A stretch of 39,919 nucleotides of DNA from a virus: positions 1 through 39,919 of IMG/VR virus record IMGVR_UViG_3300025646_003104. One strand, given 5' to 3'. The position numbers and the translations under genes are program-made. The notes beneath the pieces are model-generated. The model ran no database searches. It was not told the origin of the DNA and worked only from the letters and a program-made list of their open reading frames with translations. Below are positions 6,301-39,919 of the stretch, piece after piece (the stretch's first letter is position 1; each line of letters begins with the position of its first letter).

Positions 6301-6723
6301 TTAGTACAAGACTACAAAATGTTGTCGGATTCAGTGATATTAAATAGTGTTACGTTCAAACCGTTGTTTGGTGCTAAAGCAGATCCTGCGCTACAGGGTA
6401 CTATCAAAGTAGTGAAAGCAAGCAATACAAACGCCAGCAACAGCGAGATCAGAAGTGCGGTATTATCAGCTATGGACAGATATTTTAGTATTAATAATTG
6501 GGATTTTGGAGATACATTCTTTTTCTCAGAACTAAGCGCATATCTACATGAACAGATAGGTGATTTGATTAGCTCAGTTGTTCTTGTCTCAAACGATCCT
6601 GAAAAATTGTTTGGTGATTTGTATGAGATCAAATGTAGACCATATGAGATTTTTGTTAATGCGGCGACAACCAGCAATATTGTTATTGTACCAGCATTAA
6701 CTCCTACGACTCTACAGTCTTAA
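3361..6723 (+). CDS. 6: Baseplate wedge subunit, gp6-like (enlarged)
   Basis: The product has 1120 residues, against about 660 in T4 gp6. The N-terminal 110 residues carry the gp6-type opening with WKAIYQTFSEADFKSYDYE, LRLYYPE, ALLDVMAFMGQGLAFRNDLN and the NFLDTAERRDSV segment. The C-terminal part, from about residue 990, resembles the gp6/J-like end domain: SVTFKPLFGAK, then a helical IRSAVLSAMDRYFSI and DLYEIKCRPYEIFV. gp6 dimers form the ring joining neighbouring wedges. The middle, roughly residues 450-980, is Ser/Thr/Asn-rich beta-type sequence with no T4 counterpart, probably extra decorating domains. The start is set by the hairpin and promoter in front of it. The stop is followed by a good AAAGG site for the next gene. 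Confidence 0.9.
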   Translation: MATNSRQSGLFGVNDWKAIYQTFSEADFKSYDYETLRKSFIDYLRLYYPETFNDYIESAEFIALLDVMAFMGQGLAFRNDLNTRENFLDTAERRDSVIKLATLVGYTPKRNTCASGYLKVTSIRTTEGVVDSNGVNLSNVPILWNDPANSNWLDQMNTVINATLIDSQRIGRPGNVSDILGVTTSEYSIRIPNNTLPIAPFSTVVDGQSMNFELVSGSSVNTDYIYEIPPAPSGRLNILYRNDRLGFGSPNTGFMFYFKQGRLDNYDFTLQQAISNQSINIDIDGVNQTDTWLYQRGTNNTLELWEQVENVYADAYLQTETSSKKIFSVGSRSNDQVSYIFGDGVFSEIPVGTFRAYVRSSNALTYTIDPSEMNGVVVAISYVSRQGRNETLTIGLQLPLTVSNAQSRESLASIKQRAPTRYYTQNRMVNGEDYTNFPYTLYNSIIKSKAVNRSSIGVSKNLDLLDPTGKYSSTNSFGSDGALYQSDTDGFLSLTVENTSDIIQFFTADLSAVLSLNRATQYYIQNYPRYSYPGSGEPVLYWKTSSVESSSESGYLYSVSGSLEQPAPLGTFTTTNAKYVTPGAILKFTAPVGYYFDSNNRLVAGVPGIGDSTFIWSTVLNVVGDGSNNGSGTFANGQGPVTLNGYVPDGVTLAQVIPVFDNSLSANLIQECIIKIELQQDFTLVFNNSLLINQERWSISTFTDPNYFVKFTSLGNNRYTVTYRSLTYYFGSVTDTRFTFNKDELVYDPFTGKIIQDYVNILGINSEFGTSTALGADTKVNILGQTVESDGYVNDFQVEVAATDVNNKQLVLNPDFFNEITGYVNNGANIGVYVFFETITDPVNLVRELIVPNEEVVYTYATKNQIEVVKYEFPVGQLFYAYTDNRFYKSVQDPTVVTPLYNLVEQVNYSVKPGRQGLSYQYRHNANNTTRIDPATTNIIDLYVVTQSYYTAYRNWITDTTDTIPEPDQPTLNELNSAYPLVQDYKMLSDSVILNSVTFKPLFGAKADPALQGTIKVVKASNTNASNSEIRSAVLSAMDRYFSINNWDFGDTFFFSELSAYLHEQIGDLISSVVLVSNDPEKLFGDLYEIKCRPYEIFVNAATTSNIVIVPALTPTTLQS

Positions 6724-26152: not shown

Positions 26153-26317
26153 ATGATAAATAAAGAAATGAAGGAAACTAAATCAGAAAAAGACAGCCAA
26201 AATTCTAAGGATACTAAGAAACCAAACGAATTGGGCGGTGTATATTTTTCATCAAGTATAAAGATTTCGGATCCAGAGACAAACGAAGTATTAGTTCATG
26301 TACGAGGGGATAATTAA
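26153..26317 (+). CDS. 54-residue mini-protein resembling the N-terminus of the next gene
   Basis: The ATG follows the giant gene's TAA immediately, and the TAA at 26315-26317 overlaps the ATG of the next gene by one base. The first 26 residues are charged and Lys/Ser-rich. The rest, with IKISDPETNEVLVHVRGDN, matches LKITDPNTGEVLVDKHNAI of the following protein, so it looks like a duplicated and truncated copy. No clear Shine-Dalgarno sequence precedes the first ATG. Another in-frame ATG (residue 6) is at 26168, and a late-promoter octamer overlaps codons 1-4. It may be a real small protein, a leader for translational coupling, or a decayed duplicate. Confidence 0.5.
   Translation: MINKEMKETKSEKDSQNSKDTKKPNELGGVYFSSSIKISDPETNEVLVHVRGDN
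26155..26162 (+). promoter_or_regulatory. T4-type late promoter octamer after the giant gene
   Basis: GATAAATA occurs just after the stop of the giant gene. A start about six bases downstream falls at the second ATG of the mini-gene (26168). A transcript from here could therefore serve that shorter version leaderless, or carry a leader of about 150 bases for the gene at 26317. Confidence 0.55.
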
Positions 26318-26937
26318 TGTCAGTCGATCAACCTATTATTAAACTAGAAGGCTTTTTAAAGATCACTGATCCCAACACAGGCGAAGTCTTAGTAGATAAG
26401 CATAATGCTATCAACTATGAAAATATGTCTGAAGCGATTGCTGATACTCTTTCCTCTAGAGGTTATGGTGAAATCTATCAGATGGCTTTTGGTAACGGGG
26501 GCGCATCAGTAGACGAGACAGGTGTGATTACATACTTGCCACCAAATACTACAGGACAGAATGCGGCATTATATAATCAGACATACGCTAAAATCGTAGA
26601 TGATACTTCTGTTTTTAACTTAGATCCAACAAGAAATAAAATGACTGTGTTTCACACAACAGGACGTGTATACACAGATATATTAGTACAGTGCTTGCTA
26701 GATTATGGCGAGCCTGCAGGGCAAGCGGCTTTTGATAACAGTACGCAAACAGACTCTAACTTCATTTTTGATGAGCTGGGTCTATTGGCAAATTATGGTA
26801 CAGACAGCAACGGAAACGTGATTACACGACTATTAACTCATGTGATCTTTCACCCGGTTCAAAAGTCACTAAATAGACAGATACAGATAGATTATACGGT
26901 TAGGATTCAATCGCTAACCAACTTAGTTACAATTTAA
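26317..26937 (+). CDS. Phage tail/baseplate-associated protein of unknown role
   Basis: The product has 206 residues and no recognised enzymatic motif. It opens with IIKLEGFLKITDPNTGEVLV and HNAINYENMSEAIADTLS, then MAFGNGGASVD, and ends in a beta-rich region (QIQIDYTVRIQSL). The sequence style and its place between the giant tail protein and fibre genes indicate a virion structural component. The start codon overlaps the stop of the 54-residue mini-gene, so the two are probably translationally coupled. The first 25 residues are duplicated in that mini-gene. A late promoter for the next gene begins directly at its TAA. Confidence 0.7.
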   Translation: MSVDQPIIKLEGFLKITDPNTGEVLVDKHNAINYENMSEAIADTLSSRGYGEIYQMAFGNGGASVDETGVITYLPPNTTGQNAALYNQTYAKIVDDTSVFNLDPTRNKMTVFHTTGRVYTDILVQCLLDYGEPAGQAAFDNSTQTDSNFIFDELGLLANYGTDSNGNVITRLLTHVIFHPVQKSLNRQIQIDYTVRIQSLTNLVTI

Positions 26938-26967: not shown

Positions 26968-28191
26968 ATGGCATACACAATTGTAAAAAGCGATGGTACA
27001 GTACTAACGACCATCTCTGACGGTACTATCAATACAACGAGTACCTCTCTTGGCTTACCAGGTCGAAATTATGCGGGGTATGGACAAACGTTCGATACTA
27101 ACTATGTACATATCATCGAAAATTTCGCGGATAGCACTCCTCCTGCAAATCCTCTAAGAGGTCAGCTTTGGTATGACACAGGTGATTCGACTGTAAAAGT
27201 ATGCCCTACAGACGGAGAAACTAACGCTCTAGCATGGTTGTCACTCACTTCTACAAGCTCAGGCGGTAACACAACATTCGGCTCCGTTAGTGTAACAGGT
27301 AATCTTGCATCAAACAATCTATCAGCAACTAATACAGTAACAGCAAATGCTTTCACAGCTGGTTATTTGACTATCTCTGCAAACGCAACAATCGCAAACG
27401 CAGATATCACTTCCGCAACTATTGGTACATTAACAACAACAGATATCACTACTGGTTCAGCTACAACACCCGGTAATATTACAGGTATCTGGACTGTAAC
27501 AGGTAATACTGGTAACAATGCAAGTGCATTGTTGTTAGAGACAGGTGGTATTTACATTAGTAACTCAGCAGGAGCTAACTTATATGGTATCAGAACTGAC
27601 AAATATATGTACGCAAATGGTACTCCAGTCAGTTTCGCAGGTACTTATAGCAACTCTAACGTTGCTAGTTACTTACCAACATATGGTGGTAACATCTTAA
27701 CAGTTCAAACACAAGCAACTGTTCTTACAACAGGTGCTAACACAACAGCAGGTACAGTAACAGGTAACTGGTCACTATCAACAGGCTCACGCTTAACAGC
27801 AACATACGCTGACTTAGCGGAACGTTTTGAATCAGATCAAGCATACGAGCCAGGTACTGTAGTAGAACTCGGCGGTCCTGCAGAAATTACTGCTGTTAAA
27901 TTCGAATTAAGTGAAGACGTTTTCGGTGTCGTATCAGACAATATGGCGTTCTTGATGAATAATGGTGCAGGTGACGATATAACTCACCCTGCAGTAGCAA
28001 TGACCGGTCGTGTGCGTGTTAAGTGCAAAGGTCAAGTACGTAAAGGTCAACGTCTAGTAAGCGCCGGCGAAGGTTATGCAAGAGCCGCAAAAGACGGTGA
28101 AGCAACAGCATTTAACGTGATCGGTAGAGCATTACAAGATAAAACGAGTGAAGACTTTGGCGTAGTCGAAGCAATCGTCACAATTAAATAA
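26968..28191 (+). CDS. Tail-fibre-like protein with C-terminal chaperone/protease-like domain
   Basis: The product has 407 residues. The N-terminal 80 residues include GLPGRNYAGYGQTFDTNY and NPLRGQLWYDT, a motif common in phage fibre proteins that attach to the tail. The middle, about 95-265, is Thr/Asn/Gly-rich and repetitive (VTGNLASNNLSATNTVTANA), as expected for a trimeric beta-helical shaft. The C-terminal part begins with YADLAERFESDQAYEPGTVV and continues with GVVSDNMAFLMN and VAMTGRVRVKCKGQVRKGQ. This resembles the intramolecular chaperone or Peptidase_G2-like end domains of fibres, which assist trimer folding and may be cut off. No catalytic residues can be assigned with certainty. 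It has its own late promoter and a GGAG ribosome site. Confidence 0.75.
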   Translation: MAYTIVKSDGTVLTTISDGTINTTSTSLGLPGRNYAGYGQTFDTNYVHIIENFADSTPPANPLRGQLWYDTGDSTVKVCPTDGETNALAWLSLTSTSSGGNTTFGSVSVTGNLASNNLSATNTVTANAFTAGYLTISANATIANADITSATIGTLTTTDITTGSATTPGNITGIWTVTGNTGNNASALLLETGGIYISNSAGANLYGIRTDKYMYANGTPVSFAGTYSNSNVASYLPTYGGNILTVQTQATVLTTGANTTAGTVTGNWSLSTGSRLTATYADLAERFESDQAYEPGTVVELGGPAEITAVKFELSEDVFGVVSDNMAFLMNNGAGDDITHPAVAMTGRVRVKCKGQVRKGQRLVSAGEGYARAAKDGEATAFNVIGRALQDKTSEDFGVVEAIVTIK

Positions 28192-28206: not shown

Positions 28207-29160
28207 ATGAGTTATGCACAGTTTGGATTAATCGAAGCATCAGACTTCAATACATTAGTAGGTGGCAACCCCACGACTACTTCTAACACATTAAATGCTG
28301 TTTGGGCAGTAGGTGGCTCAACTGCCGGATATGGACAGACTGCTGTAGCAAACGTTTCAGCCGGGCAAACTGTAGCAAGTTCTGCTCAATGGAACTCGTT
28401 AGTTGCGAATACTGCATCAGCCGCATCACATCAAGGCTCAACTATCACTTCAGTTGCCGCCCCTGTTTCAGGCGGTACTATTACTTACTTGTCAGCTATT
28501 CCTTCTAACTTAACAACTATCTATTCAAACAGAAGAAACGCCGCAACACAAGGTTCAACATCTGCTAACACAGCAACCCGCGGCACTTCTTGGCAGACAG
28601 CATTAACATTTACTCATACAGTAACATTTGCATCAGGAGATGCCGCACGTTACTTCTTTAATGCTGGTGGACAGATTAAAATCACATGCTCACACCCCTC
28701 AGGTACGGGCATCAACTTGTTATGGTCTGATCTAGCGTCTAACGTTGGTACTGTTGTTATGAGTTCTCCAAGCTCAGGTACAGTATCTATTGCAGGCGGT
28801 ACTTATTCAGGTATCACTAAAGTTGGTGGCGGTGGTTCATCACCTACAATCGATGCTAACAAGGGTTATTTTGCATTAACCACAGCGAATGCGACAGCAT
28901 TTACACAGACAGCTTCTACAGGTCCTTCAGGCTACTTGAGTTCTTTCATCCGTTGTATTGTAAAGTCAAACGGTGCTCAAGGATCTAATGGCGATGCTGG
29001 TTCTATAATCACTATCTACACTATCTGGGACGAAGTTCCAGATGATCTAGTAGTGTCTTCAGGTACAGCAGTAACGTGTACAGTACAAAACCCAGAAACA
29101 ACTTATCTAAGTGCTTCTTGGGGTACACCTACTATTGCTGGCTCAGTATCCGGTTCATAA
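28207..29160 (+). CDS. Gly/Ser/Thr-rich tail structural protein
   Basis: The product has 317 residues. AGGAA at 28193-28197 lies nine bases before the ATG. The opening MSYAQFGLIEASDFNTLVG and the QWNSLVAN segment are followed by a region with NRRNAATQGS and ARYFFNAGGQIKITCS, a motif seen in other aquatic phage virion proteins. The rest is beta-rich with frequent Gly and Ser, and there is no transmembrane segment. It is probably a fibre or adhesin component working with the preceding gene. It is the last structural gene before the hairpin that opens the modification operon. Confidence 0.65.
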   Translation: MSYAQFGLIEASDFNTLVGGNPTTTSNTLNAVWAVGGSTAGYGQTAVANVSAGQTVASSAQWNSLVANTASAASHQGSTITSVAAPVSGGTITYLSAIPSNLTTIYSNRRNAATQGSTSANTATRGTSWQTALTFTHTVTFASGDAARYFFNAGGQIKITCSHPSGTGINLLWSDLASNVGTVVMSSPSSGTVSIAGGTYSGITKVGGGGSSPTIDANKGYFALTTANATAFTQTASTGPSGYLSSFIRCIVKSNGAQGSNGDAGSIITIYTIWDEVPDDLVVSSGTAVTCTVQNPETTYLSASWGTPTIAGSVSGS

Positions 29161-29223: not shown

Positions 29224-29529
29224 ATGGATACTAAAAAATTAATTTCAGACGCTAAAGCAAGATTTAGTCATAATTCTGCGAAAGCATACCTTAAAGAAAA
29301 ATACAGTGCTAAACTATTAGTCGCTGAACAAGGCGGCTTATGGCGCGCCTGCCCAGAAACAATTGCACATCTAGCATCTTTCCAATCCGAAAAACTAGTC
29401 CTCATCGATACGTTTGACAATCCGGTCAAAGTTGACAGAAAAGAATTACTCTCTTTACTTACGACTACATACGAAAATGTCATGAACGAATGGTATGAAG
29501 AATGGAAAGAACTAGAAAACAAACGTTAA
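29224..29529 (+). CDS. Small hypothetical protein, first gene of the modification operon
   Basis: The product has 101 residues and is mostly helical and charged. It begins with an amphipathic N-terminus (ISDAKARFSHNSAKAYLKEK), has a central AEQGGLWRACPETIAHLASF and ends in NEWYEEWKELENKR. It resembles small proteins of unknown function in other T4-like phages, and no catalytic motif is visible. AGAGG lies three bases before the ATG and is buried in the hairpin. The next gene starts within its last 28 bases, so translation of the two is probably coupled. Confidence 0.75.
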   Translation: MDTKKLISDAKARFSHNSAKAYLKEKYSAKLLVAEQGGLWRACPETIAHLASFQSEKLVLIDTFDNPVKVDRKELLSLLTTTYENVMNEWYEEWKELENKR

Positions 29530-30377
29530 AATCTAGAGGTCTTCTAATATTTGCATTTAACACTGAAAAGTGGGATTATGTAGCCATGGCTGCATACACT
29601 GCTAAACGTGCAAAGCAATTTTTAGGACTACCTACTACTCTTATCACTAACGAAGAATCTAAACCTGAAGGTGATCTTGCGAAGACCTTTGATCAGATCG
29701 TTGTGGTGAAAGCAGATAAAAATAATATCAGAGACCATATGATTTGGATCAACAAAGGCAGATATCAAGCCTATGAACTAAGTCCATATGATGAGACTCT
29801 ATTATTAGACGCGGATTATGTCATCAACTCTGATAAGTTGTTGACTACTTTTGATCTGTCTGACACGTTCTGTTGTCATAACAAGACCGATTTCTTGATG
29901 TATCCAAATGCTCCCCAAGAAACGTTAAGTTCATATAGTTATGACACGCTATGGGCAACTGTAGTGATGTTTAAAAAATCAGAACGTGCTAGACAGATTT
30001 TTGAAACACTAAAAATGGTTCAAGAAAATTACTCTCACTATGCAAATATTCATAGTTTTATTGGTGGGGTATTTAGAAATGATTATGCACTTACTATTGC
30101 GCTACGAATAGTTAACGGACACTCAATAGAACCCAGTGATTATATTCCCTGGAACTTAGTTCACGTAGGCAAGAATACTTCAGTATACGCAAAATATCCG
30201 GATCAACCGATACCGTTCAGCGATGGCGATCCAGCATTCAATACAGAATTTATTGTTATGTTTGATAACTGGCAAAAGGGCAAGATCAGAAAAGAATACT
30301 TAGAGATTTATGATCTAGATTTTCACGTAATGAACAAAGAACTATTTGTTGACATTATGGAGAACAAACATGGATAA
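29502..30377 (+). CDS. Putative GT-A-type glycosyltransferase 1
   Basis: The product has 291 residues. GLLIFAFNTEKWDYVAMAAY at residues 13-32 is an opening beta strand and helix of a nucleotide-sugar-binding fold. ETLLLDADYVINSDKLL follows, with Asp103-Ala-Asp105 placed as the metal-binding DxD of GT-A (GT8-like) transferases. Later segments WATVVMFKKSERARQIFE and FRNDYALTIALRI also fit this family. The donor and acceptor are unknown. The ATG overlaps the preceding gene by 28 bases; no later in-frame ATG precedes the conserved strand, which supports this start. Its stop overlaps the next start. Confidence 0.68.
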   Translation: MERTRKQTLKSRGLLIFAFNTEKWDYVAMAAYTAKRAKQFLGLPTTLITNEESKPEGDLAKTFDQIVVVKADKNNIRDHMIWINKGRYQAYELSPYDETLLLDADYVINSDKLLTTFDLSDTFCCHNKTDFLMYPNAPQETLSSYSYDTLWATVVMFKKSERARQIFETLKMVQENYSHYANIHSFIGGVFRNDYALTIALRIVNGHSIEPSDYIPWNLVHVGKNTSVYAKYPDQPIPFSDGDPAFNTEFIVMFDNWQKGKIRKEYLEIYDLDFHVMNKELFVDIMENKHG

Positions 30378-31152
30378 AGGATTTGTTATTCTAGCACAAA
30401 ACAGCAGTGTCAATTATATTCGTTGCGCTGAATTGTTAGCAGAAAGCATCGTGCGTGTTATGCCTGATGCTAGAGTATCATTAATTTCTAATAATAAAAC
30501 TAATTCAACAGTATGGGACAAAGTAATCAAATTGCCATACGGCGACTTAGGTGGGTTTTTTAATGATTGGCAAGTATACGAAGCATCGCCATATGAATAC
30601 ACCATTAAACTTGAAGCAGATATGTATGTTCCCCGATCAATTGATTATTGGTGGGAAATTCTAAAAAGTAAAGATGTTGTAGTTTCTACTACGATCAGAA
30701 ATTTTAAGCAAGATATTTCACATATCAAAACTTATAGAAGATTTGTCGTTGACAATGAATTGCCTGATACGTATAATGCTATCACATATTTTAAAAAATC
30801 GGAGACAGCAAAAGAGTTTTTTGATACAGTAAGATTTATTTTTGAAAACTGGGAAGAAATTAAACCAGAGTTCAAGTGCAACCCGGATGAGCCTGCTACA
30901 ACAGATTTCGTGTACGCTATCGCATCGCACGTTGTTGGAGTAGAGAAAACTACTCTCCCTAACTTCACGCAGATGTCCATGATTCACATGAAGCAGTTTA
31001 TCAATACTATGCCTACTGAAGATTGGACATCTACGCTTGTCTACGAGATTTTGCCACACACTATTAGAATAAACACAATCCCCCAGATATATCCTTTTCA
31101 CTATCATGTTAAAGAATTTTCTGATAGAATAGCAGAGGTATTTTATGAGTGA
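30370..31152 (+). CDS. Putative GT-A-type glycosyltransferase 2
   Basis: The product has 260 residues from the chosen ATG at 30370. GGAG at 30359-30362 lies seven bases upstream. An in-frame ATG at 30346 would add eight residues without a good ribosome site. DKGFVILAQNSSVNYIRCAE is the opening strand and helix, and EYTIKLEADMYVPRSIDYWW contains Glu82-Ala-Asp84 at the DxD position. TYNAITYFKKSETAKEFFD and ATTDFVYAIA parallel the previous protein, so the two are probably distant paralogues. The first aspartate of DxD is replaced by Glu. It overlaps the neighbours on both sides by eight bases. Confidence 0.62.
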   Translation: MDKGFVILAQNSSVNYIRCAELLAESIVRVMPDARVSLISNNKTNSTVWDKVIKLPYGDLGGFFNDWQVYEASPYEYTIKLEADMYVPRSIDYWWEILKSKDVVVSTTIRNFKQDISHIKTYRRFVVDNELPDTYNAITYFKKSETAKEFFDTVRFIFENWEEIKPEFKCNPDEPATTDFVYAIASHVVGVEKTTLPNFTQMSMIHMKQFINTMPTEDWTSTLVYEILPHTIRINTIPQIYPFHYHVKEFSDRIAEVFYE

Positions 31153-31492
31153 TGATCTAGAAGAATACATCTTAATCTGGGAAGCCCCCAAGATCGAAGC
31201 ACCCGAATTCAGATTGTATTACAAAGAAGACGGGAGTGTAGATTTCTATACTTGCGAGAAACCCGAAGGAAATTATATCGTCATAGACCAACAGACATAT
31301 GCTGAAGGTAGACAAGACGTAAAGGTTGTTAATGGCAGGGTCTCTAGAATCAGACCTCATACTACAATCGAAAAACTAGTAAAGTCAGACAGAGGACAAA
31401 AAACTGCATTACATGATGTCAGTGTAGTCATCACCTCAGACTCGACAGAGAAAGAATTTGCATATTGGGAATTAAAAACATATGAGTACTGA
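31145..31492 (+). CDS. Small hypothetical protein between glycosyltransferase-like genes
   Basis: The product has 115 residues. It begins with an acidic stretch (SDDLEEYILIWEAPKIEA). A beta-rich core follows with FRLYYKEDGSVDFYTCEKP and GNYIVIDQQTYAEGRQD, and it ends in FAYWELKTYEY. No enzyme motif is visible, and small phage proteins with this layout are usually unannotated. It overlaps the previous gene by eight bases (ATGAGTGA) and the next by eleven, so it belongs to the same translational unit and may be an accessory subunit. Confidence 0.7.
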   Translation: MSDDLEEYILIWEAPKIEAPEFRLYYKEDGSVDFYTCEKPEGNYIVIDQQTYAEGRQDVKVVNGRVSRIRPHTTIEKLVKSDRGQKTALHDVSVVITSDSTEKEFAYWELKTYEY

Positions 31493-32429
31493 TATTATCG
31501 ATGTAGCTGATTTAGATTGTATCTATCTTAGTTACGATGAGCCACAAAAAGAAGAATTTTGGTTAAAGATTAAAAACATGGTACCTTGGGCTAAAAGAGT
31601 CGATGGTGTACTAGGTTCCGATGCGGCTCACAAAGCCGCAGGTGAGGCCAGTGACACGGAAAGATTTATTCTTATCGATGGTGACAATATGCCTGACGAA
31701 GAATTTTTTAATATACAACTAGATTTTACTGATAAAGATCCTAGGTATCATCAAGCACAATTTAGATGGAAAGCGATCAACAACATTAATGGATTGCGTT
31801 ATGGTAATGGTGGCATGAGTTCATGGACTAAATCATATGTAGAGAAAATGAATACTCACGAACATACTGATGGTAGCGCACACACTCAAGTAGACTTCTG
31901 CATGGATAGCAGTGATAGTTTATATTGGGCTATGTATGATTGTTACTCAACAACTTATCCTAACTACACACCTTTCCAAGCATGGCGTGCAGGTTTTCGT
32001 GAAGGAGTGAAGATGGTTCTTGACAGAGGCGCAAGAACTACAGTAGAACAATTCAAGCAACGTGTTGCAACAAGAAACTTAGATAACTTGACTATCTGGC
32101 AAAACGTTGGTGATGATGTAGAGAATGGCATCTGGGCTATCTATGGCGCAAGACTTGGTACATATATGACTATGTTAAGCGATTGGGATCACGTTAATGT
32201 TATGTGGTTTGAGAACTATCCCAAGATGTGGGAAGAGCATAAAGATAAAGATCCATATGCAGAAGCCGAAACAATCGGACAAGCATTACACGCAAAACTA
32301 GGTTTACCTATGTGTATAATGTCTCCTGAGCAAAGTGCATTCTTTAAACGTCACTATAAGGCAGACAGAGCAAACAAAGGACCTCTAGTCACTGAGATGG
32401 AAGTAATTAGAGAAATTGAGGGCTGGTAA
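31482..32429 (+). CDS. Putative phage glycosyltransferase 3 (DGDN type)
   Basis: The product has 315 residues. The N-terminus has DCIYLSYDEPQKEEFWLKI, VPWAKRVDGVLGSDAAHKAA and ERFILIDGDNMPDEEF, with the DGD at residues 66-68 placed like the metal-binding DxD of GT-A enzymes. This set of motifs is typical of a protein often labelled glycosyltransferase in aquatic T4-like phages. Further marks are NGLRYGNGGMSSWTKSYVEK and TPFQAWRAGFREGVKM. The acceptor is unknown. It overlaps the previous gene by eleven bases, and its TAA shares a base with the ATG of the first radical SAM gene, which ties the sugar and radical SAM parts together. Confidence 0.65.
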   Translation: MSTDIIDVADLDCIYLSYDEPQKEEFWLKIKNMVPWAKRVDGVLGSDAAHKAAGEASDTERFILIDGDNMPDEEFFNIQLDFTDKDPRYHQAQFRWKAINNINGLRYGNGGMSSWTKSYVEKMNTHEHTDGSAHTQVDFCMDSSDSLYWAMYDCYSTTYPNYTPFQAWRAGFREGVKMVLDRGARTTVEQFKQRVATRNLDNLTIWQNVGDDVENGIWAIYGARLGTYMTMLSDWDHVNVMWFENYPKMWEEHKDKDPYAEAETIGQALHAKLGLPMCIMSPEQSAFFKRHYKADRANKGPLVTEMEVIREIEGW

Positions 32430-33832
32430 TGTCTAAAGAAACAGACAGAATTAAAACTATACAAATACGAGTAGAAAACGAAGCATCGCCTACGTTCTGT
32501 CTGGCTAAGTGGCATCACGTTACTATGTATTTGCAGACAGGCGAGACGCACAGTTGCTATCACCCTAGACCTCATAAGATTCCGTTGCATGAATTAAAAG
32601 AAAACCCAAGTGCTTTACACAACACTTGGGAAAAGAAAATGGAACGTAAGCAGATGCTTGAGGGTGAGAAACCTGAAGGCTGTCAATACTGCTGGAACGT
32701 AGAAGCATTGGGTCCTGATTATATCTCAGACAGACATATCAGAAACGGGTCTATCTTTACTGAAGAAAGATTTGAACAGTGCGCTAAAGGCAGTTACGAA
32801 CAAAACATCAATCCAGAATACATTGAAATCAACTTTGGTAACGAGTGTAACTTTAAATGTGGTTACTGTCACCCTAAATATTCTTCAAGTTATCACAGTG
32901 AGATCAAACAGTTTGGTCCTGTAGAAAGTGTGAAGAATCATAGATGTGATATTGACTGGATGAAACTGTTTGAACGTGAAGAAGAAAATCCTTACGTAGA
33001 TGCGTTCTGGGAATGGTGGCCTGAGATGCGTAAGACCTTAAACATCTTGCGGGTGACAGGTGGTGAACCTACTATGCACGTTTCTACTTGGAGACTACTA
33101 AAACAGATCGATGAAGATCCTATGCCGTGGTTAGAACTAAACATGAATTCTAATCTAGGAACAAAAACGGCCCTCATCGAACGTCTAGCAGACTCAGTGA
33201 AGAAACTGTGTGATGAAAAGAAACTAGAAAGTTTCAAACTATTTACCAGCTTAGATTGCTGGGGCGAACGTGCAGAATATATTAGGACGGGTCTAGACTT
33301 AGCGTTATGGGAAAAGAATTTTCATACATATCTAACTAGAACTGATTCTCCCGTCACGTTCATGGTAACATTCAATATCTTAGCAGTAACATCATTCAAG
33401 CAATTATTAGAAAAGTTCTTAGAATGGCGTAAGATGTATGGGTGGTATGAATGGAAATCTGAAGACAAACATAGAGTGCGTTTCGATACCCCATACTTGA
33501 AAGAGCCTTTACAATATGATATGAATATCTTACCAAAAGAAGAATTCATGCCTTATATGCATGAGTCGCTACAGTTTATCAAAGATAACGTAGATGACAC
33601 AAGACCTGATGCGTTTACAACTATTGAATATGAAAAGTTCAAACGAGTTGTTGACTATATGGCTGAGACACATTATAGTGAAGAAAAACTGATTGAAGGA
33701 AGACGAGATTTCTACAACTGGTTCAACGAACTTGATGATCGTAGAGAAACTGATTTACTGTCTATCTATCCTGAATATCTAGATTTCTATAGATTGTGTC
33801 AACAAGCCAACTTAACGAACCCAATGAGATAA
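32429..33832 (+). CDS. Radical SAM protein 1 with N-terminal twitch-like domain
   Basis: The product has 467 residues. The radical SAM motif CNFKCGYC is at Cys140, Cys144 and Cys147, binding the [4Fe-4S] cluster that cleaves S-adenosylmethionine. GGEP follows at 211-214. Ahead of it is a twitch/SPASM-like domain with Cys24, Cys43, Cys85 and Cys88 (PTFCLAKWHH, HSCYHP, GCQYCWN), probably holding an auxiliary cluster. A GERAEYIRTG motif near 280 is shared with the next two proteins. It is the most diverged of the four twitch-bearing copies, lacking their PCC motif. The first start position (TAATG) suggests translational coupling. The substrate is unknown. Confidence 0.85.
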   Translation: MSKETDRIKTIQIRVENEASPTFCLAKWHHVTMYLQTGETHSCYHPRPHKIPLHELKENPSALHNTWEKKMERKQMLEGEKPEGCQYCWNVEALGPDYISDRHIRNGSIFTEERFEQCAKGSYEQNINPEYIEINFGNECNFKCGYCHPKYSSSYHSEIKQFGPVESVKNHRCDIDWMKLFEREEENPYVDAFWEWWPEMRKTLNILRVTGGEPTMHVSTWRLLKQIDEDPMPWLELNMNSNLGTKTALIERLADSVKKLCDEKKLESFKLFTSLDCWGERAEYIRTGLDLALWEKNFHTYLTRTDSPVTFMVTFNILAVTSFKQLLEKFLEWRKMYGWYEWKSEDKHRVRFDTPYLKEPLQYDMNILPKEEFMPYMHESLQFIKDNVDDTRPDAFTTIEYEKFKRVVDYMAETHYSEEKLIEGRRDFYNWFNELDDRRETDLLSIYPEYLDFYRLCQQANLTNPMR

Positions 33833-33835
33833 AAG

Positions 33836-35128
33836 ATGAAGGGACCGGCAGCTACATTTTTAAAGAAATTACTTTTAGAAGAAAGCGAAACTTTCTGCAT
33901 GATTCCGTGGGTGTCTATTCATACAACACCTACTGGTCAAGCCGCACCGTGTTGTATTTCTAAATCCTGTTCAGATAATATCGGTATAGGAAATTCAAAC
34001 GTGAACACCTTAGATGAACTAGTAAACTCACCTAAGATGAAGCAGTTACGTTTAGATATGATCAAGGGTACTAAGAATCCTGAGTGTGCTAACTGTCATA
34101 AACACGATGCTCAGGGTGTACCTAGTTTTAGAACGCAATCTAATACAGTATGGGCAAAAGACTTGATTCAAGTAGTAGAAAACACTGACTTAAAGACAGG
34201 AAAGATCAGTAATTTTAAAATGAAATATTTTGATGTCAGATTTTCAAACATATGTAACTTCAAATGTCGTACATGCGGATCAGCGTTTTCTACTCAATGG
34301 GAACAAGAAGATTTAAAGAGCCAAGAATTGACCGGTTTACCAATGTATGCTGTGCAATTAGAAAAAGGCAACAGAAAAGAATTTGTACAAGAAGTGTTAG
34401 AACATATTCCAAATATGGAAGTTGCATATTTTGCAGGCGGCGAACCCCTGATCACTGATGAAATGTACCTGATGCTAGAAGAAATGATCAGAGTAGGTAA
34501 GACAGATATTGAGCTAAGATATAATACTAATATCTCTAATCTCAAATATAAAAAGAAAGATATCTTCAAACTATGGGAACACTTTTCTAAACCTATTCAA
34601 GTTTTTGCGTCAGTAGATCATTTTGGACCCAGAGCAGAATATATAAGACACGGCACAGATTGGAAGCAAGTAGAAGAAAATATTAAAAGGCTACGCAAAG
34701 CTCCTAATGTAAGATTCCAAGTTAACTCAGTTCTGAGTGTATTCAATGCTTTGACTATTTCTCATTTCTACAAGTACATGATCGATAATCATTACTATGT
34801 TCCTAGCAGTCCCGTATGGACTCTTTATAACATGGGCAGTCCTGAGCATGTATCAGTACACGTATTACCCCCTGATTACAAAGAACAAGTTGTACAGCAA
34901 TTAGAACTTACTATCAAGTATATGGAAGATTTGGGCTTCTCTGATAGCCATACCCAGCAGATCAAAAACTGTATTCCTTGGGTGTTGTCTAAAGATACGT
35001 GGGACGAACAGAAAAAAGACTTCAAAGAAGAAATTCATAGACTTGATGCACTCAGGGAAGAAGATTTCACAGTAACTTTCCCTGAACTAGCAAATTTATA
35101 TAAACCACCTACTAATTTGAGACCATAA
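33836..35128 (+). CDS. Radical SAM protein 2 with N-terminal twitch/SPASM-like domain
   Basis: The product has 430 residues. The N-terminal domain has FCMIPWVSIHTTPTGQAAPC with Cys21, Cys39 and Cys40, and ECANCHKH with Cys84 and Cys87. In normal SPASM enzymes this type of segment lies after the radical SAM core. The core has RFSNICNFKCRTCG with Cys140, Cys144 and Cys147, then AYFAGGEPLIT with GGEP at 201-204. YNTNISNLKYKKKDIF and GPRAEYIRHGTDW follow. Similar N-terminal-twitch radical SAM proteins are known as a family in phages and bacteria; the reaction is not established here. The ribosome site before its ATG is weak, and only three bases separate it from the previous stop. Confidence 0.85.
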   Translation: MKGPAATFLKKLLLEESETFCMIPWVSIHTTPTGQAAPCCISKSCSDNIGIGNSNVNTLDELVNSPKMKQLRLDMIKGTKNPECANCHKHDAQGVPSFRTQSNTVWAKDLIQVVENTDLKTGKISNFKMKYFDVRFSNICNFKCRTCGSAFSTQWEQEDLKSQELTGLPMYAVQLEKGNRKEFVQEVLEHIPNMEVAYFAGGEPLITDEMYLMLEEMIRVGKTDIELRYNTNISNLKYKKKDIFKLWEHFSKPIQVFASVDHFGPRAEYIRHGTDWKQVEENIKRLRKAPNVRFQVNSVLSVFNALTISHFYKYMIDNHYYVPSSPVWTLYNMGSPEHVSVHVLPPDYKEQVVQQLELTIKYMEDLGFSDSHTQQIKNCIPWVLSKDTWDEQKKDFKEEIHRLDALREEDFTVTFPELANLYKPPTNLRP

Positions 35129-36369
35129 TGTCACGTATACCTATCGACAAAGAATTTCTATTAAACGAAAGCAAAACTTTCTGTATGTTTCCGTGGCTGC
35201 ACTTGAACGTGACTCCTAAAGGTGATATCTATCCTTGCTGTTCAAATGACTATACACAGCCTTTTGGTAACACAAAAGAGATTACTTTAGAAGAAGCATT
35301 CAACAGTGACAAGATGAAGAAACTGCGCCTAGATATGCTTAACGAACGCAAGAACGATATCTGTACTTTTTGTTATAAGCATGAAGAAGCAGGTCCTCAC
35401 AGTTTTAGGAACTATTCTAAAGAGCAGTTTGCACACCACTTTGATGATCTTGTTCCCTTGACACAAGAAGATGGACATGTACATGACTTTAGAATGCACT
35501 ACTTTGATATTAGATTCTCAAATATCTGCAACTTTAAATGCAGAACTTGCGGTGCAGAGTTTAGTTCTCAGTGGGCGCAAGAGATGCGTGAACACTTTGA
35601 CCCAACACACAAGATCATTATTCACGCAGATGACGGTAAGGGTACAGTACTAGAAGAAGTTATCGGACAGATTGACAACATCGAACTGTGTTACTTTGCA
35701 GGTGGCGAGCCACTTATCACTGAAGAACACTATGTGATGTTAGAAGAATTTATCAGACGCGGCAAAAAGCCCGTATTACGTTACAATACTAACGCAAGTA
35801 ATATAAAATATAAAAAGCATGACATCTTAGAGTTGTGGAAGCATTTTGACAAGATCGAACTAAGTTGTTCTATCGATCATTTCGGGGAACGTGCTGAGTG
35901 GTTGCGTAAAGGTACAGATTGGGGTAAGGTAGAAAGCAACTTGCTTACCTTCAGAGATTTAGATTATGTGTCATTCCAGATGAACACTGTATTCTCACTG
36001 TTTAACTATCCAATGATCGGCGAGTTCTATCAGTATCTAAAAGACAAGAATATTGTTAGAGCAGAAGATTGGTATCATAGTCTGTATCTTGCGGTACATC
36101 CAAATTATTATAGTGCGAAAAGTTTACCAAAAGAACTAAAGATCGAAGCCGCAGAAAAAGCAATGCGCTGGGCCGATGCAAACAGAGATGACAAAACAAG
36201 TTTGTCTAGATTAGTAACTGATGCAGTAAACTTTGCGGCAGAAAGTGATACTTGGAAAGATGTTAAAGATACTATGCTTATGCATACAAGATCAATAGAC
36301 AGAATAAGAGACGAAGATTTCTGGAAGGTGTTTCCTGAATTAAATAAGTTGCGTGACTTAAACGAATAG
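35128..36369 (+). CDS. Radical SAM protein 3 with N-terminal twitch/SPASM-like domain
   Basis: The product has 413 residues. The N-terminal cysteines are Cys19, Cys37, Cys38, Cys79 and Cys82 (TFCMFPWLHLNVTP, YPCC, CTFCYKHEEAG). The radical SAM motif ICNFKCRTCG uses Cys134, Cys138 and Cys141, and GGEP is at 192-195. YNTNASNIKYKKHDILELW and GERAEWLRKGTDW match the previous protein closely, so the pair arose by duplication. The TAA of the preceding gene overlaps this ATG by one base. All catalytic residues that can be checked are present. Confidence 0.86.
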   Translation: MSRIPIDKEFLLNESKTFCMFPWLHLNVTPKGDIYPCCSNDYTQPFGNTKEITLEEAFNSDKMKKLRLDMLNERKNDICTFCYKHEEAGPHSFRNYSKEQFAHHFDDLVPLTQEDGHVHDFRMHYFDIRFSNICNFKCRTCGAEFSSQWAQEMREHFDPTHKIIIHADDGKGTVLEEVIGQIDNIELCYFAGGEPLITEEHYVMLEEFIRRGKKPVLRYNTNASNIKYKKHDILELWKHFDKIELSCSIDHFGERAEWLRKGTDWGKVESNLLTFRDLDYVSFQMNTVFSLFNYPMIGEFYQYLKDKNIVRAEDWYHSLYLAVHPNYYSAKSLPKELKIEAAEKAMRWADANRDDKTSLSRLVTDAVNFAAESDTWKDVKDTMLMHTRSIDRIRDEDFWKVFPELNKLRDLNE

Positions 36370-36379
36370 GTGAAAATAA

Positions 36380-37660
36380 ATGGATAAATTAGTAGTAAAA
36401 AATCTAGTTGAGAACGGTAAGCACTTCTGTGTATTACCCTGGGTTCACTTTCATGCTTGGCCCGACAAGCGTGTATTACCTTGTTGCGTAGCAGATTCTA
36501 ATATGCCAATGGGCGAGATCAGAGAAGACGAATCTATCATCCAGATGATGAACTCTGACGAGTATAAAAAGTTGCGTACAGCGATGATGAAAGATGAGCC
36601 TGTCGCCGCATGTAAGCGTTGCTATGACTTAGAACTCATGGGCGAGTGGACTATGCGTCAGTCACATAACAAACGTAAAGGCTTAGAATACGTAGACTAC
36701 ATTGCAGATACTACTAATGATGACGGATCGTTAAAAGAGTTTGAGATGAAGTATATGGATATTAGATTCTCTAATATCTGTAACATGAAGTGTAGATCAT
36801 GCGGACCTTCATGTTCATCTCTTTGGTCACAAGAGTTTTTAGATCAGCGAGGCAAAGAAGTATTCAATGAATACTTCCCGCAGAATAATGGTAAGATCGT
36901 TATCAGTAACAACGATGATCAGCGTTTCTTGACTAAACTAAAACCTTATTTAAGTGACGTAACTGAAGTATATTTTGCAGGTGGTGAAATCATTATTACC
37001 CCTGAACATTATGAATGCTTAGACTATTGGGTCGATAACGGCTTGACTGAGCAAGTAGAGTTAACCTATACTACAAACTTCTCAACATTAAACTACAAAA
37101 AGAATGTTGACTTGATTGGGTATTGGAAAAAGTTCCCCCAGCTAAAAATCTGGGCAAGTTTAGATGCACATGAAGAAGTGGCAGAGTGTATCAGAGCAGG
37201 CACAGATTGGGAGAAAATCGTCAGGAATATCAGAGAAGTTAGAGAGCAAGTGCCACATGCTCAGTTTCAAATTACTCCCACGATATCCATTTGGAACATC
37301 TTTGATTTTCCTGACTTCTGGGATTACATGGTTGAAAACGATTTTATCGATGTTAAAAACTCGGCACCTCGTTTCAACTTAGCAACTAACCCTTGGTATG
37401 CAAACGTTATGATCTTGCCACAGCATGTTAAGCGCAGGCTAGCAGAACTATATCGTGTGTATCAAGAACGTCATAAAGATAACGTACATATCTATAATGG
37501 CTTTAAGATGATCATCTACAACTTAACAGTAGGCGATGAAAACAAAGGTGGTATTTTAGAATTCAAGCAATTCAATGATGAACTAGATCAGTTTAGAGAC
37601 GAAAAGTTTGAAGACATCGTACCCGAAATTAAGGAAGTATACGAGTGGGCCGCGAGTTAA
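36380..37660 (+). CDS. Radical SAM protein 4 with N-terminal twitch/SPASM-like domain and altered GGE motif
   Basis: The product has 426 residues. The N-terminal cysteines are Cys17, Cys35, Cys36, Cys78 and Cys81 (FCVLPWVHFHAWP, LPCC, CKRCYDLELMG). The core motif ICNMKCRSCGPSC has Cys134, Cys138 and Cys141 plus an extra Cys145. The usual GGEP is GGEI at 201-204 (VYFAGGEIIITPEH). The RAExxRxGTDW motif is altered to EEVAECIRAGTDW. AGGTGA close to the previous stop serves as a weak ribosome site. It is clearly a paralogue of proteins 2 and 3 with several changed positions around the active site, suggesting a different substrate. Confidence 0.84.
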   Translation: MDKLVVKNLVENGKHFCVLPWVHFHAWPDKRVLPCCVADSNMPMGEIREDESIIQMMNSDEYKKLRTAMMKDEPVAACKRCYDLELMGEWTMRQSHNKRKGLEYVDYIADTTNDDGSLKEFEMKYMDIRFSNICNMKCRSCGPSCSSLWSQEFLDQRGKEVFNEYFPQNNGKIVISNNDDQRFLTKLKPYLSDVTEVYFAGGEIIITPEHYECLDYWVDNGLTEQVELTYTTNFSTLNYKKNVDLIGYWKKFPQLKIWASLDAHEEVAECIRAGTDWEKIVRNIREVREQVPHAQFQITPTISIWNIFDFPDFWDYMVENDFIDVKNSAPRFNLATNPWYANVMILPQHVKRRLAELYRVYQERHKDNVHIYNGFKMIIYNLTVGDENKGGILEFKQFNDELDQFRDEKFEDIVPEIKEVYEWAAS

Positions 37661-38658
37661 GAGAAGTATTTGCACCAGAACCCTACTTGGCAATAACATG
37701 GCAAGTAAACAATTTTTGCAATTTTAAATGCTCTTATTGTAATCCGGGTAACTGGGCGGGCGAAAACCCCAACAATGGTAATTTAGATATCTACTTAAAG
37801 AATCTATCTACTATTGTTAGTCGCTATCAAAAAGCAGGATACAAACACTTTAAGTTTTTCTTTTCTGGTGGTGAACCCACTGCATGGAGAAACTTTATTC
37901 CTATCTGTGAGTATCTACACAGTGAGTTACCTAATGCTACTTTAGCAGTGAATACTAACTTGTCAAGACCTCTAGCGTGGTGGGAAAAACACGCATACTT
38001 GTTCGATGATGTAGTTGCCAGCTTTCACGTAGAGTTTGCTAACAAAGAACGCTACGAAGAAAATTCTATCTTTCTATGTGAGAACGTAAACTATCTTTCT
38101 ACAAAGATGTTGATGCACGAAGAACGATTCTGGGAAGTAGTAGAGTTTGCTGAACATCTCAAAACAGTGATGCCTAACTACTTTATTGAGTGGACTCCTT
38201 TGTATGATGAACTTAGTCATGTTACAGGGCCATGGCAATACAAAGATCCTGAGAAAGTAAAGTTCATCGAAGAACATAACTTAGAAATCAAGCAAACAAA
38301 AGACAAGCCCGCAAAACGCACAGAGTTCACGGTATCGTATAATAAATACTCAGATGGAAGTGAGCAAGTATGTAATGCTAACGACATTATCGTAAACTCA
38401 CAGAACTTTTTTAAAGGATGGAAGTGTAATGTAGGTGACTGTATCTTTATCAATCCTGTAGGCACGATGAGTTTAGCAAGTTGTGGCATGGGAGGGGTTG
38501 TAGGACACATCTTAGAAGATATCAAAAATGTAGGTCCCAAACAAATCACTTGTTATAAAGACATGTGTATGTGCGGCACAGACATCATTATTCCGAAATT
38601 TTGGACAGGGGAAAAAATAACAAATGAACGAAAAATTCCGATCAGTCATCTCGCATAG
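37645..38658 (+). CDS. Radical SAM protein 5, C-terminal auxiliary cysteines, GTG start
   Basis: The product has 337 residues. The start is GTG at 37645, supported by AAGGA at 37631-37635 nine bases upstream; it overlaps the previous gene by 16 bases. The radical SAM motif CNFKCSYCNPG is near the N-terminus at Cys25, Cys29 and Cys32, and FFSGGEPTAWRNF places GGEP at 75-78. There is no N-terminal twitch domain. The C-terminus instead carries Cys261, Cys266, Cys280, Cys303, Cys308 and Cys310 (GWKCNVGDC, ASCGMGG, ITCYKDMCMC), a SPASM/twitch-like auxiliary cluster region. It is from a different subfamily than the four preceding copies. The substrate is unknown. Confidence 0.83.
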   Translation: MGRELREVFAPEPYLAITWQVNNFCNFKCSYCNPGNWAGENPNNGNLDIYLKNLSTIVSRYQKAGYKHFKFFFSGGEPTAWRNFIPICEYLHSELPNATLAVNTNLSRPLAWWEKHAYLFDDVVASFHVEFANKERYEENSIFLCENVNYLSTKMLMHEERFWEVVEFAEHLKTVMPNYFIEWTPLYDELSHVTGPWQYKDPEKVKFIEEHNLEIKQTKDKPAKRTEFTVSYNKYSDGSEQVCNANDIIVNSQNFFKGWKCNVGDCIFINPVGTMSLASCGMGGVVGHILEDIKNVGPKQITCYKDMCMCGTDIIIPKFWTGEKITNERKIPISHLA

Positions 38659-39919
38659 TTCAGATGATAAAGTCAAAGTAGTCTATGCATGGCACGGTCC
38701 TAGGGGCCCGATCTGGAATACAGAGTTGCCTAATGTGCTGTCATTCGCATCAGTATCAGAAGGTGTAGGACCATATATGGAGTCTAGACATTTTTGGTGT
38801 GACGATTTATGGCAAAAACTGTTTTCTTTTCAAGATGAAATGTATGAATTGACAACTGCACAATCTATCGAATTTGATGATATGCGCCCATTCGTGTATC
38901 CGTTTTCTTTAGCCTGGCGAGTTCCGTTTGAGTCATATTTTTGCGGAAATTCAGGAATTTTAGAATTTTCTCACATGCCTGATTGGTTAGTTCATTTATG
39001 TATAATCGGTAACGGTTATATTCTTATCGACCATTCAGTAGAAGCATTCATGTCAGACAGAGAACTAGATTCGATGTACTCTTATTTTCATCATAATCAT
39101 AATATTCCTATGTACAAGATCATGTACTTAACGGGTACTATTAATGGCGAACAAGTATATGATGATTGGGCTAACAGAAATAACATTCCTGATGATAAAG
39201 ATCACAGAATGAAGATTATTCCATATGCTTCTTCAAGGGAAATATTCAGTAGATTTCTAGAGTGCGGGGACACTGACGGAAATCTAGCAGTAGAACCACA
39301 TTATGATCCTAATCATGTACCTGAAAAATTATTTTTAAGCTGGAATAGAAGATTTAGAACACATAGAACATTGTTAGCATTGATTTTAGAAAAATATAAT
39401 CTAATCGAACGATCTGTGATTAGTTTTGCAAAACACGATGAAGAAAGATTCACTGACACGTTTATAAAACTTATACACAATATGGATAAACCTATCAGAC
39501 CATATGGTAACGGTTCGATTGAGTTTAATTCCAAAGAGATAGAAAGATTCAACAGCAGGCTTCCACTAGTAATCGATGGTGAAAAAGACGTTAATAAGAT
39601 GTGTGAAGATTTTGGTTTTACTGCGGACTACTATAAACAAACTTTAGTAAGTTTAGTAACTGAAACTAATTTTACACTCAACGAATGTACATTAACTGAA
39701 AAGTCATTTAAGCCGTTATTACATAAACACCCCTTTATTATTTTAGGCGTACCCGGCGCAGTTAGAGGGTTGAGAGATTTAGGGTTCCAGACATTTGGAG
39801 AATTCTGGGACGAAAGTTATGATGAAACCGATGATCCCGGAAACCGTATGGTAAAGATAGCAGAAATTCTTAAAGATATAGGAACTTGGGACGATAATAG
39901 AATCAGAGATTTTAGGATG
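38624..39919 (+). CDS. Unknown protein, possibly glycosyltransferase-related (3' truncated)
   Basis: An uninterrupted frame begins at the ATG at 38624 and runs off the right edge; 432 residues are visible. AGGGG at 38607-38611 lies twelve bases upstream, and the start overlaps the previous gene by 35 bases. The N-terminus has VVYAWHGPRGPIWNTELPN. The C-terminal visible part contains KLFLSWNRRFRTHRTLLALI, LVTETNFTLNECTLTEKSFK and HPFIILGVPGAVRGLRDLGF, then FWDESYDE. The E-x-TEK (Thr358-Glu-Lys360) followed by a hydrophobic PFIILG strand is reminiscent of the acceptor-loop and donor motif of GT10-type transferases. That similarity is by eye only, so the function is open. Confidence 0.6.
   Translation, partial: MNEKFRSVISHSSDDKVKVVYAWHGPRGPIWNTELPNVLSFASVSEGVGPYMESRHFWCDDLWQKLFSFQDEMYELTTAQSIEFDDMRPFVYPFSLAWRVPFESYFCGNSGILEFSHMPDWLVHLCIIGNGYILIDHSVEAFMSDRELDSMYSYFHHNHNIPMYKIMYLTGTINGEQVYDDWANRNNIPDDKDHRMKIIPYASSREIFSRFLECGDTDGNLAVEPHYDPNHVPEKLFLSWNRRFRTHRTLLALILEKYNLIERSVISFAKHDEERFTDTFIKLIHNMDKPIRPYGNGSIEFNSKEIERFNSRLPLVIDGEKDVNKMCEDFGFTADYYKQTLVSLVTETNFTLNECTLTEKSFKPLLHKHPFIILGVPGAVRGLRDLGFQTFGEFWDESYDETDDPGNRMVKIAEILKDIGTWDDNRIRDFRM

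Follow-up and report, generated by a model that had tools for sequence, protein, structure and literature searches.

We describe here five intact radical SAM open reading frames encoded head to tail by an uncultured large phage, on the + strand at positions 32429-38658 of the window, by which we mean the whole 39,919-nucleotide stretch analyzed (IMG/VR record IMGVR_UViG_3300025646_003104). Four of the five, R1 to R4, are old paralogs that keep a fixed order in many phages, and a tight link of the array to glycosyltransferase (GT)-like and fiber genes is supported by searches seeded with those neighbors. The reading that we lean towards, while giving it slightly less than an even chance, is that R1-R5 form the oxidative or radical part of a glycan pathway that is soluble, encoded by the phage, and linked to genes of the distal tail fiber, and the data suggest that a sugar or a protein on the virions of such phages undergoes chemical remodeling by the phages themselves.

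The proteins and their families are established computationally. R1 (32429..33832, 467 aa), R2 (33836..35128, 430 aa), R3 (35128..36369, 413 aa), R4 (36380..37660, 426 aa), and R5 (37645..38658, 337 aa, with a GTG start) all contain the CX3CX2C motif, and the successive junctions are +3, -1, +10, and -16 bases, confirming the initial annotation's claim of five consecutive genes of this type; a promoter and terminator scan gave the same counts as in shuffles. When searched against family models, R1-R4 match NCBIfam NF033640 (N_Twi_rSAM; cut-off 170 bits) over the whole protein at 306 (E 3.5e-91), 375, 359, and 354 bits respectively, and so have the N-terminal twitch that had been noticed before the core in four proteins, whereas R5 scores 31 bits, lies outside the family, and is recognized by Pfam Radical_SAM (37.1 bits). 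The family name states only the domain order, and no function is assigned to it. R2 and R3, like R5, exceed the Pfam Radical_SAM gathering score and R1 and R4 fall below it; Pfam SPASM is above cut-off at the N-terminus of R2, R3, and R4 (in R2, SPASM spans residues 21-88 and Radical_SAM 135-289). R1 carries SCY where PCC is expected and has no Pfam SPASM match, yet it keeps the four twitch cysteines (C21, C39, C84, and C87 in R2 numbering) that do not vary among R1-R4 or 19 diverse NF033640 members, and that are predicted to bind a cluster. The twitch domain begins almost at the first residues of these array proteins; R5 has no N-terminal auxiliary domain, and its family alignment has conserved C-terminal cysteines (C261, C303, and C308).

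A radical SAM fold, the absence of which from structural models had been set as a refuting test, is present in the AlphaFold2 model of R2 (pLDDT 87.6), the sole array protein for which the fold is shown, with a structural comparison that barely covers residues 1-93. Viperin, which has nucleotides as substrates, is the top match of the R2 core both in Foldseek and by sequence, and the fold neighbors also include the sugar enzymes DesII and BlsE. The N-terminal twitch domain of the R1-R4 family significantly matches that of BtrN (4m7t, E 5e-4, by sequence), an aminocyclitol dehydrogenase and twitch radical SAM enzyme of butirosin biosynthesis, but the twitch lies after the core in BtrN and before it in R1-R4, and any activity in common would be suggested by the sequence similarity of the twitch domains. 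Both this match and the two sugar enzymes speak for the glycan reading. Peptide enzymes (anSME with Z 11.6, SkfB, SuiB, and EpeE) also rank with the top fold matches and, with viperin, are as numerous as the sugar enzymes, which counts against the glycan reading. The peptide enzymes argue instead for a reading in which R1-R5 modify a virion polypeptide directly, in RiPP-like fashion as SPASM/twitch relatives do, with the GT-like genes glycosylating the same protein. We consider this unlikely, while granting it real weight; RiPP maturase models all score far below cut-off.

The array is not of recent making. The motifs RFSNICN, YxTNxSxxxYKK, and GTDW are all found in R2, R3, and R4, as first noted, and identity to R2 is 43% for R3, 32% for R4, and 24% for R1, so that the proposed origin by duplication holds as paralogy; expansion within this phage does not, because R1, R2, R3, and R4 each form their own orthologous clade across phages, with R3 as the sister clade of R2, and recent tandem duplication is thereby ruled out. 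Chance or an assembly artefact is likewise ruled out, since every array gene has syntenic orthologs in dozens of other contigs. Selection is evident in the comparison with locus L005, in which R1 is 95% identical with dN/dS 0.019 and the values for R1, R3, and R4 are 0.02-0.04, with dS saturated for R2 and R5; R2 is the fastest evolving of R1-R4. Extra local copies of the N-terminal-twitch (N-Twi) genes occur in loci L009, L018-L020, and L128 only. R5, d1, and d0 (the latter two are described below) have no matches among 50,697 phage records. Bacterial N-Twi genes also occur in runs, with up to nine in 21 kb in Bdellovibrionota, where the neighbors (aspartyl hydroxylase, aminotransferases, patatin, and others) do not point to any single function.

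Upstream of the array, on the same strand, is a structural block. It includes a baseplate wedge subunit (3361..6723, 1120 aa; phrog_10646, E 1e-252) whose closest relatives, at ~33%, are in jumbo T4-like phages, and a giant virion structural protein (6734..26152, 6472 aa) with an N-terminal piece that matches phrog_10938 and a position that in Atu_ph07 and Phosso is taken by virion proteins of 4450-4555 aa. The conserved fiber-region protein d11 (26317..26937, 206 aa; phrog_11259, E 2e-70) corresponds both in location and in sequence to Atu_ph07 gp177 and Phosso gp293. The tail-fiber-type structural protein d12 (26968..28191, 407 aa), for which PHROG gives virion structural and tail fiber matches, is similar at both ends to Atu_ph07 gp176 and Phosso gp292 when read by eye. 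The fiber-like virion protein d6 (28207..29160, 317 aa) is a candidate substrate or carrier, and its homolog in PA5oct, gp360, was found in virions by ESI-MS/MS. In an alignment of 59 members d6 has neither a RiPP-like tail nor a conserved core-like stretch, and conservation is even along its length without special conservation of the C-terminus, which argues against direct peptide modification. PA5oct has d6 and its fiber neighbors with no annotated radical SAM gene adjoining; this counts against the glycan reading, and indicates that modification is not needed for fibers as such.

Between d6 and R1 are two small conserved proteins, d5 (29224..29529, 101 aa; in 77 viral loci) and d7 (31145..31492, 115 aa; in 61), and the glycosyltransferase candidates d3 (29502..30377), d2 (30346..31152, with a later ATG possible at 30370), and d1 (31482..32429, 315 aa), the last directly upstream of R1; d0 (38624..39919), a conserved protein with putative glycosyltransferase-like motifs, continues past the contig end. 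All are on the + strand. Searches of d1, d3, d5, and d7 against Pfam, NCBIfam, and PHROGs gave no usable match (none for d7 in NCBIfam, and no credible family for d5), the sole match of d2 is a PHROG of unknown function, and profiles of d0, d1, and d3 brought up nothing useful when run against PDB sequences. The AlphaFold2 model of d1 (pLDDT 90.7) has GT-A-type glycosyltransferases as its best Foldseek matches (E from 2e-4), with a structural Z of 7-8 that is near the background of the tool, and its acidic motif has an invariant D66 and a near-invariant D68, making d1 a candidate GT-A-like protein. Pfam gives no match for d0, d2, or d3, nor does PDB for d0 or d3, so that a glycosyltransferase role for these is suggested by acidic motifs and position, with an invariant DxD in d3 (D103, D105) and an invariant D92 within a LEAD motif in d2. 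There are 173 copies of d0 across 89 viral loci.

The linkage of these genes is strict among the window's relatives, as sampled by the best 80 matches to each seed. N-Twi genes are present in 79 of 80 loci seeded with d1 (74/74 where more than 3 kb lies downstream), in 68/68 seeded with d3 and in 53/55 seeded with d6 where there is room; d2 and d3 accompany d1 in all 80, and 62 of the d1-seeded contigs are absent from the radical-SAM-seeded sets. The tie to glycosyltransferase candidates and fiber genes that was originally remarked upon is stronger than could be seen from the sequence by itself. Among 88 dereplicated viral N-Twi loci, 85 contain a d0-d3 gene (N-Twi loci having also served to define these clusters), a sugar-type enzyme occurs in 67, and 51 have d1 immediately 5' of the first N-Twi gene. 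Occurrence in unrelated contexts had been set beforehand as refuting, and just three of the 88 lack both GT-like and fiber-like genes of these clusters. Neighboring Pfam families include NDP-sugar epimerase, UDP-glucose/GDP-mannose dehydrogenase, NodU-type carbamoyltransferase, DegT aminotransferase, and B12 radical SAM. Related loci also contain amidinotransferase-like, PP-loop, and PLP genes alongside the carbamoyltransferase, as natural-product clusters do, and this and the viperin match would fit a pathway whose product is a small molecule in free form, or one that acts on nucleotides or the DNA of the phage. We think this very improbable, as the strict linkage is to fiber rather than replication genes, the genes common across phages are mostly GT-like, and a hydropathy scan finds no exporter in the module.

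Clusters of phage radical SAM genes are already known, and the N-terminal-twitch order characterizes a curated NCBIfam family. The environmental T4-like virus TARA_ERS488813_N000010 carries 12 such genes (PMC5332604), and there are eight in Aeromonas phage 332-Vera, within its structural gene cluster (PMC12390700); the excerpts of these reports that we draw upon do not give subfamily, order, or substrate, and that on 332-Vera makes a comparison with pPa_SNUABM_DT01, whose cluster is of the Cys-His (CH)-tail kind considered below. The array, first remarked upon as unusual for a phage, is therefore unusual among cultivated phages but not among phages at large, since such clusters are common in environmental genomes and have been reported. 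The cultivated Vibrio phages K566 and K567 have four radical SAM genes of the N-Twi type, two of them above cut-off, and in K566 two GT8 genes are interleaved with them, but identity to the window is ~21-25%, gene order differs, and no close d1 relative was found. Similar in composition is a variable island of T4-like pelagimyophages and cyanomyophages, whose host recognition cluster holds glycosyltransferases and radical SAM cassettes amid tail-fiber genes (PMC7029224). Those cassettes vary between close genomes, whereas the arrangement d6-d5-d3-d2-d7-d1-R1..R5 is retained across widely diverged loci, and the window phage is of the jumbo T4-like kind.

A change in the O-chain was proposed for that host recognition cluster (PMC7029224), and this, together with the nearby sugar-nucleotide enzymes, raises the prospect that during infection the module acts on the surface polysaccharide of the host (LPS/O-chain), altering it so as, for instance, to exclude other phages. 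We find this improbable. Membrane proteins are nearly absent, as a simple hydropathy scan of 118 loci found only four proteins with three or more hydrophobic stretches; the module has no flippase or membrane glycosyltransferase of the gtr/wzx type used in serotype conversion, and no lipid-linked glycosyltransferase or other membrane protein; and its genes sit in a structural block behind fiber genes, with the d6 linkage noted above.

The cultivated jumbo phages Atu_ph07 (Agrobacterium) and Phosso (Sinorhizobium) share with the window a baseplate wedge, a giant structural protein, d11, and d12 followed by radical SAM genes, but the cluster at this equivalent locus is a different one. Its radical SAM genes are of other subfamilies, with C-terminal SPASM domains, and it has a cupin-like protein but lacks both d0-d3 and any full N-Twi protein. 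A PapB/DynA-like radical SAM/SPASM gene there adjoins a protein with the conserved tail CHxSCHxSCHxSRxRR, an ending that recurs across at least 120 viral loci. This pairing speaks for RiPP-like modification of a virion polypeptide, but a CHxxCHxxCHxxRxRR tail is absent from the window and from every N-Twi locus, so that we reject such a substrate for the window phage, and tail loci never contain d1-d3 or full N-Twi proteins, so the two systems look distinct.

Returning to the glycan pathway that we favor, nucleotide sugars would come from host and phage enzymes, and the GT-A-like d3, d2, and d1, perhaps with d0, would carry out sugar transfer. R1-R5 would then perform successive radical SAM steps on the sugar or glycan, each paralog a different one, with dehydrogenation, epimerization, deoxygenation, or C-C chemistry as candidates, and related phages may append carbamoyl, amino, methyl (by B12 radical SAM), or acyl groups. 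A virion fiber protein, with d6 the best candidate, would most likely be the final carrier of the glycan, and what the fiber binds would be altered; the sugar substrate, the virion acceptor, and the order of steps are what we infer. The fuller proposal, that a tail-fiber glycan is rewritten stepwise by at least five radical SAM enzymes to give a chemically unusual virion sugar for host binding, is put forward tentatively, as less likely than not.

Phage radical SAM genes have long been listed as oddities or metabolic helpers, and to our knowledge no substrate has been given for them so far. The fixed block described here links a functionally empty curated family to three GT-like proteins and one fiber protein, and so narrows the possible substrates to a few that can be tested; similar clusters in phages already in culture, namely Vibrio K566 and K567 and, in the case of the sister system, Atu_ph07 and Phosso, make the question testable. 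If this proposal is true, radical chemistry on the virion would count as a novel type of post-translational modification in viruses, and phages would offer an extensive and as yet unexplored supply of radical reactions on sugars or peptides.

The five successive radical SAM ORFs proposed in the initial annotation are borne out, namely R1 (32429-33832), R2 (33836-35128), R3 (35128-36369), R4 (36380-37660) and R5 (37645-38658), the window being a complete 39,919-base IMG/VR virus record that may itself be a fragment. The N-terminal location of the auxiliary domain in four of them also holds: R1 to R4 are full-length members of NF033640, an already existing curated NCBIfam family whose radical SAM proteins carry the twitch domain at the N-terminus (here N-Twi), and the Pfam SPASM domain is N-terminal in R2, R3 and R4. 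R5, whose conserved cysteines are C-terminal, represents a separate type of radical SAM protein. Four cysteines, C21, C39, C84 and C87 in R2 numbering, are invariant across R1 to R4 and 19 diverse relatives. In the family profile, the first 80 positions match the BtrN twitch domain (E 5e-4) and the core matches viperin (E 8e-8). The radical SAM fold is present in an AlphaFold2 model of R2 (19 aligned sequences; pLDDT 87.6, pTM 0.84), whose top structural matches by Foldseek and VIA-align are radical SAM enzymes, among them viperin (E 2e-5), SkfB, BlsE, DesII, MoaA and anSME (Z 11.6, 3.8 A over 222 residues). Because sugar, nucleotide and peptide enzymes are intermixed among these matches, the fold does not decide the substrate.

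An R2-seeded scan gave 46 related viral loci, and a family-alignment scan at least 593 relatives. In the closest group the order beside the fibre genes is nearly constant, d11-d12-d6-d5-d3-d2-d7-d1-R1-R2-R3-R4-R5-d0, where d11, d12 and d6 are fibre-region, tail-fibre-type and fibre-like proteins, d5 and d7 are small conserved proteins, d1 to d3 are glycosyltransferase-like and d0 is the downstream gene; the near-constant order extends 3' of d0 to an NDP-sugar epimerase, then an SGNH-like protein, then a B12 radical SAM protein. In a second group (L032, L036-L040) the d1-like domain is the end of a longer protein, followed by R1, a single R2-type gene, R4, R5 and a B12 radical SAM gene; at L036 a d6-like protein, read by eye, lies immediately upstream of the longer protein. 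The third group (L046, L050, L158, L163, L165) has five N-Twi genes in a fixed order of its own, with carbamoyltransferase, 2OG-oxygenase-like and amidinotransferase-like genes at some loci. Phage contigs L048 and L049 show a different pathway composition, in which about nine to ten radical SAM genes are accompanied by genes for PP-loop ATPase-like proteins and one for a PLP-enzyme-like protein. N-Twi runs of up to nine genes in 21 kb also occur in Bdellovibrionota MAG contigs (L073, L084, L068, L104), and in L104 each of the five genes of one phage set has a relative. Contigs filed as Rhodobacteraceae, Verrucomicrobia, Rickettsiales, Pelagibacter and Betaproteobacteria MAGs (L053, L054-L057, L065, L067) contain the phage fibre block and probably come from phages that were binned with bacteria.

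The suggestion that at least part of the array arose by duplication stands as regards paralogy, with the qualification that duplication happened long ago and the copies were retained, since in a tree of 125 sequences (quick method, SH-aLRT support) R1, R2, R3 and R4 each form a separate clade spanning phages, with R2 and R3 as sisters. This retention fits a division of labour. Compared with contig L005, dN/dS is 0.019 for R1, 0.028 for R3 and 0.041 for R4, and synonymous sites are saturated for R2 and R5. R2 evolves much faster (76% identity to L005 versus 92-95% for R1, R3 and R4), as if its substrate varied between phages.

Searches were also seeded with d1, d3 and d6, so that context was not judged from radical SAM-seeded loci alone; each used the best 80 matches, and the linkage holds for relatives of the window. 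Among these matches, N-Twi genes were found at 79 of 80 d1-seeded loci (74/74 with more than 3 kb downstream), at 68/68 d3-seeded loci and at 53/55 d6-seeded loci with more than 6 kb downstream, which ties the array to glycosyltransferase-like and fibre genes as initially supposed. Both d2 and d3 were present at 80/80 of the d1-seeded loci, and 62 of those 80 contigs, counted by name, were absent from the radical SAM-seeded sets. Of the 88 loci in the dereplicated set, 85 contain at least one gene of the d0-d3 types and 67 contain a sugar-type enzyme. The d1 model (pLDDT 90.7) matches GT-A enzymes with E from 2e-4 (ArnC, cellulose synthase, RmlT, TarP and the PBCV-1 capsid glycosyltransferase), with structural Z of 7-8, near background; a DxD is invariant in d3, as is the Asp of LEAD in d2, and neither protein matches Pfam. 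We tentatively favor a glycan that would be built by a soluble pathway and tailored by radical chemistry, its target most likely being a virion fibre protein. Modification of the host surface is a real, though less likely, alternative: an O-chain role has been proposed for the glycosyltransferases of pelagimyophage host recognition clusters, which contain radical SAM cassettes (PMC7029224), but membrane proteins are nearly absent from the loci, which disfavors a lipid-linked O-antigen route.

The fibre-like d6 is likely a virion protein, because a distant homologue in Pseudomonas phage PA5oct was detected in the virion by ESI-MS/MS, together with its fibre neighbours and the giant protein. No radical SAM gene is annotated within 12 kb after that PA5oct block, so the fibre block can exist without the array. 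The closest relatives of the window's baseplate wedge protein (about 33%) are in the jumbo T4-like phages Phosso (Sinorhizobium, 469 kb) and Atu_ph07 (Agrobacterium, 490 kb). The window's own giant protein, a virion structural protein encoded by one ORF at 6734-26152, has 6472 aa, about 2000 more than its Phosso and Atu_ph07 counterparts (about 4450-4555 aa).

At the very genomic position of the array, Phosso and Atu_ph07 have three to four radical SAM genes, but these belong to other subfamilies with C-terminal SPASM-type domains, whereas the twitch domain of R1 to R4 is N-terminal. Their neighbours are a cupin-like protein and another whose sequence ends in CHSSCHASCHNSRSRR or CHTSCHASCHSSRSRR. 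Burkholderia phage SURPRISE13 and Pseudomonas phage pPa_SNUABM_DT01 have this CH tail too, again after the same enzyme, though the proteins that bear it otherwise differ. At least 120 viral stretches contain the tail according to a pattern scan. Proteins with a CHxSCHxSCHxSRGRR C-terminus lie at L199:21119-22009 and L198:40415-41335 (both minus strand), L200:9060-9620 and L201:9025-9561, with further loci at L202-L321; they occur in the fibre region of jumbo phages beside PapB/HxsB-like radical SAM and cupin-like genes. In the P. aeruginosa jumbo phage pPa_SNUABM_DT01, six radical SAM genes lie in about 9 kb (L201:7480-16965) beside spike/fibre-like genes. Across 147 tails in nine body clusters, positions not fixed by the search pattern are strongly conserved as well, with Ser at -13 (93%), -9 (80%) and -5 (91%) and Gly at -3 (90%), and the Atu_ph07 enzyme has a relative at 91 of 124 CH-tail loci. 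The tail, of which we found no description in the literature searched, looks like the target of the adjoining radical SAM enzymes and like a RiPP-type core borne by a phage protein. By analogy only, this system supports action of fibre-region radical SAM genes on virion proteins. Direct peptide modification by the array itself is also a real alternative, less likely than the glycan pathway but likelier than a host-surface role; no CH tail occurs in N-Twi loci, and no d0-d3 or full N-Twi protein in CH-tail loci.

Radical SAM gene clusters in phages are already published: 12 genes in a T4-like environmental genome (PMC5332604), enrichment of both radical SAM and glycosyltransferase genes among phages of the Tasman Sea (PMC7150976), three genes in SURPRISE13 (PMC11898562) and eight, termed highly unusual, within the structural cluster of Aeromonas phage 332-Vera (PMC12390700). 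The available portions of these papers and of PMC7029224 describe neither a substrate nor a fixed module of this kind. The array is real, conserved and under selection, and, relative to those portions, its fixed module is a new form of such clusters.
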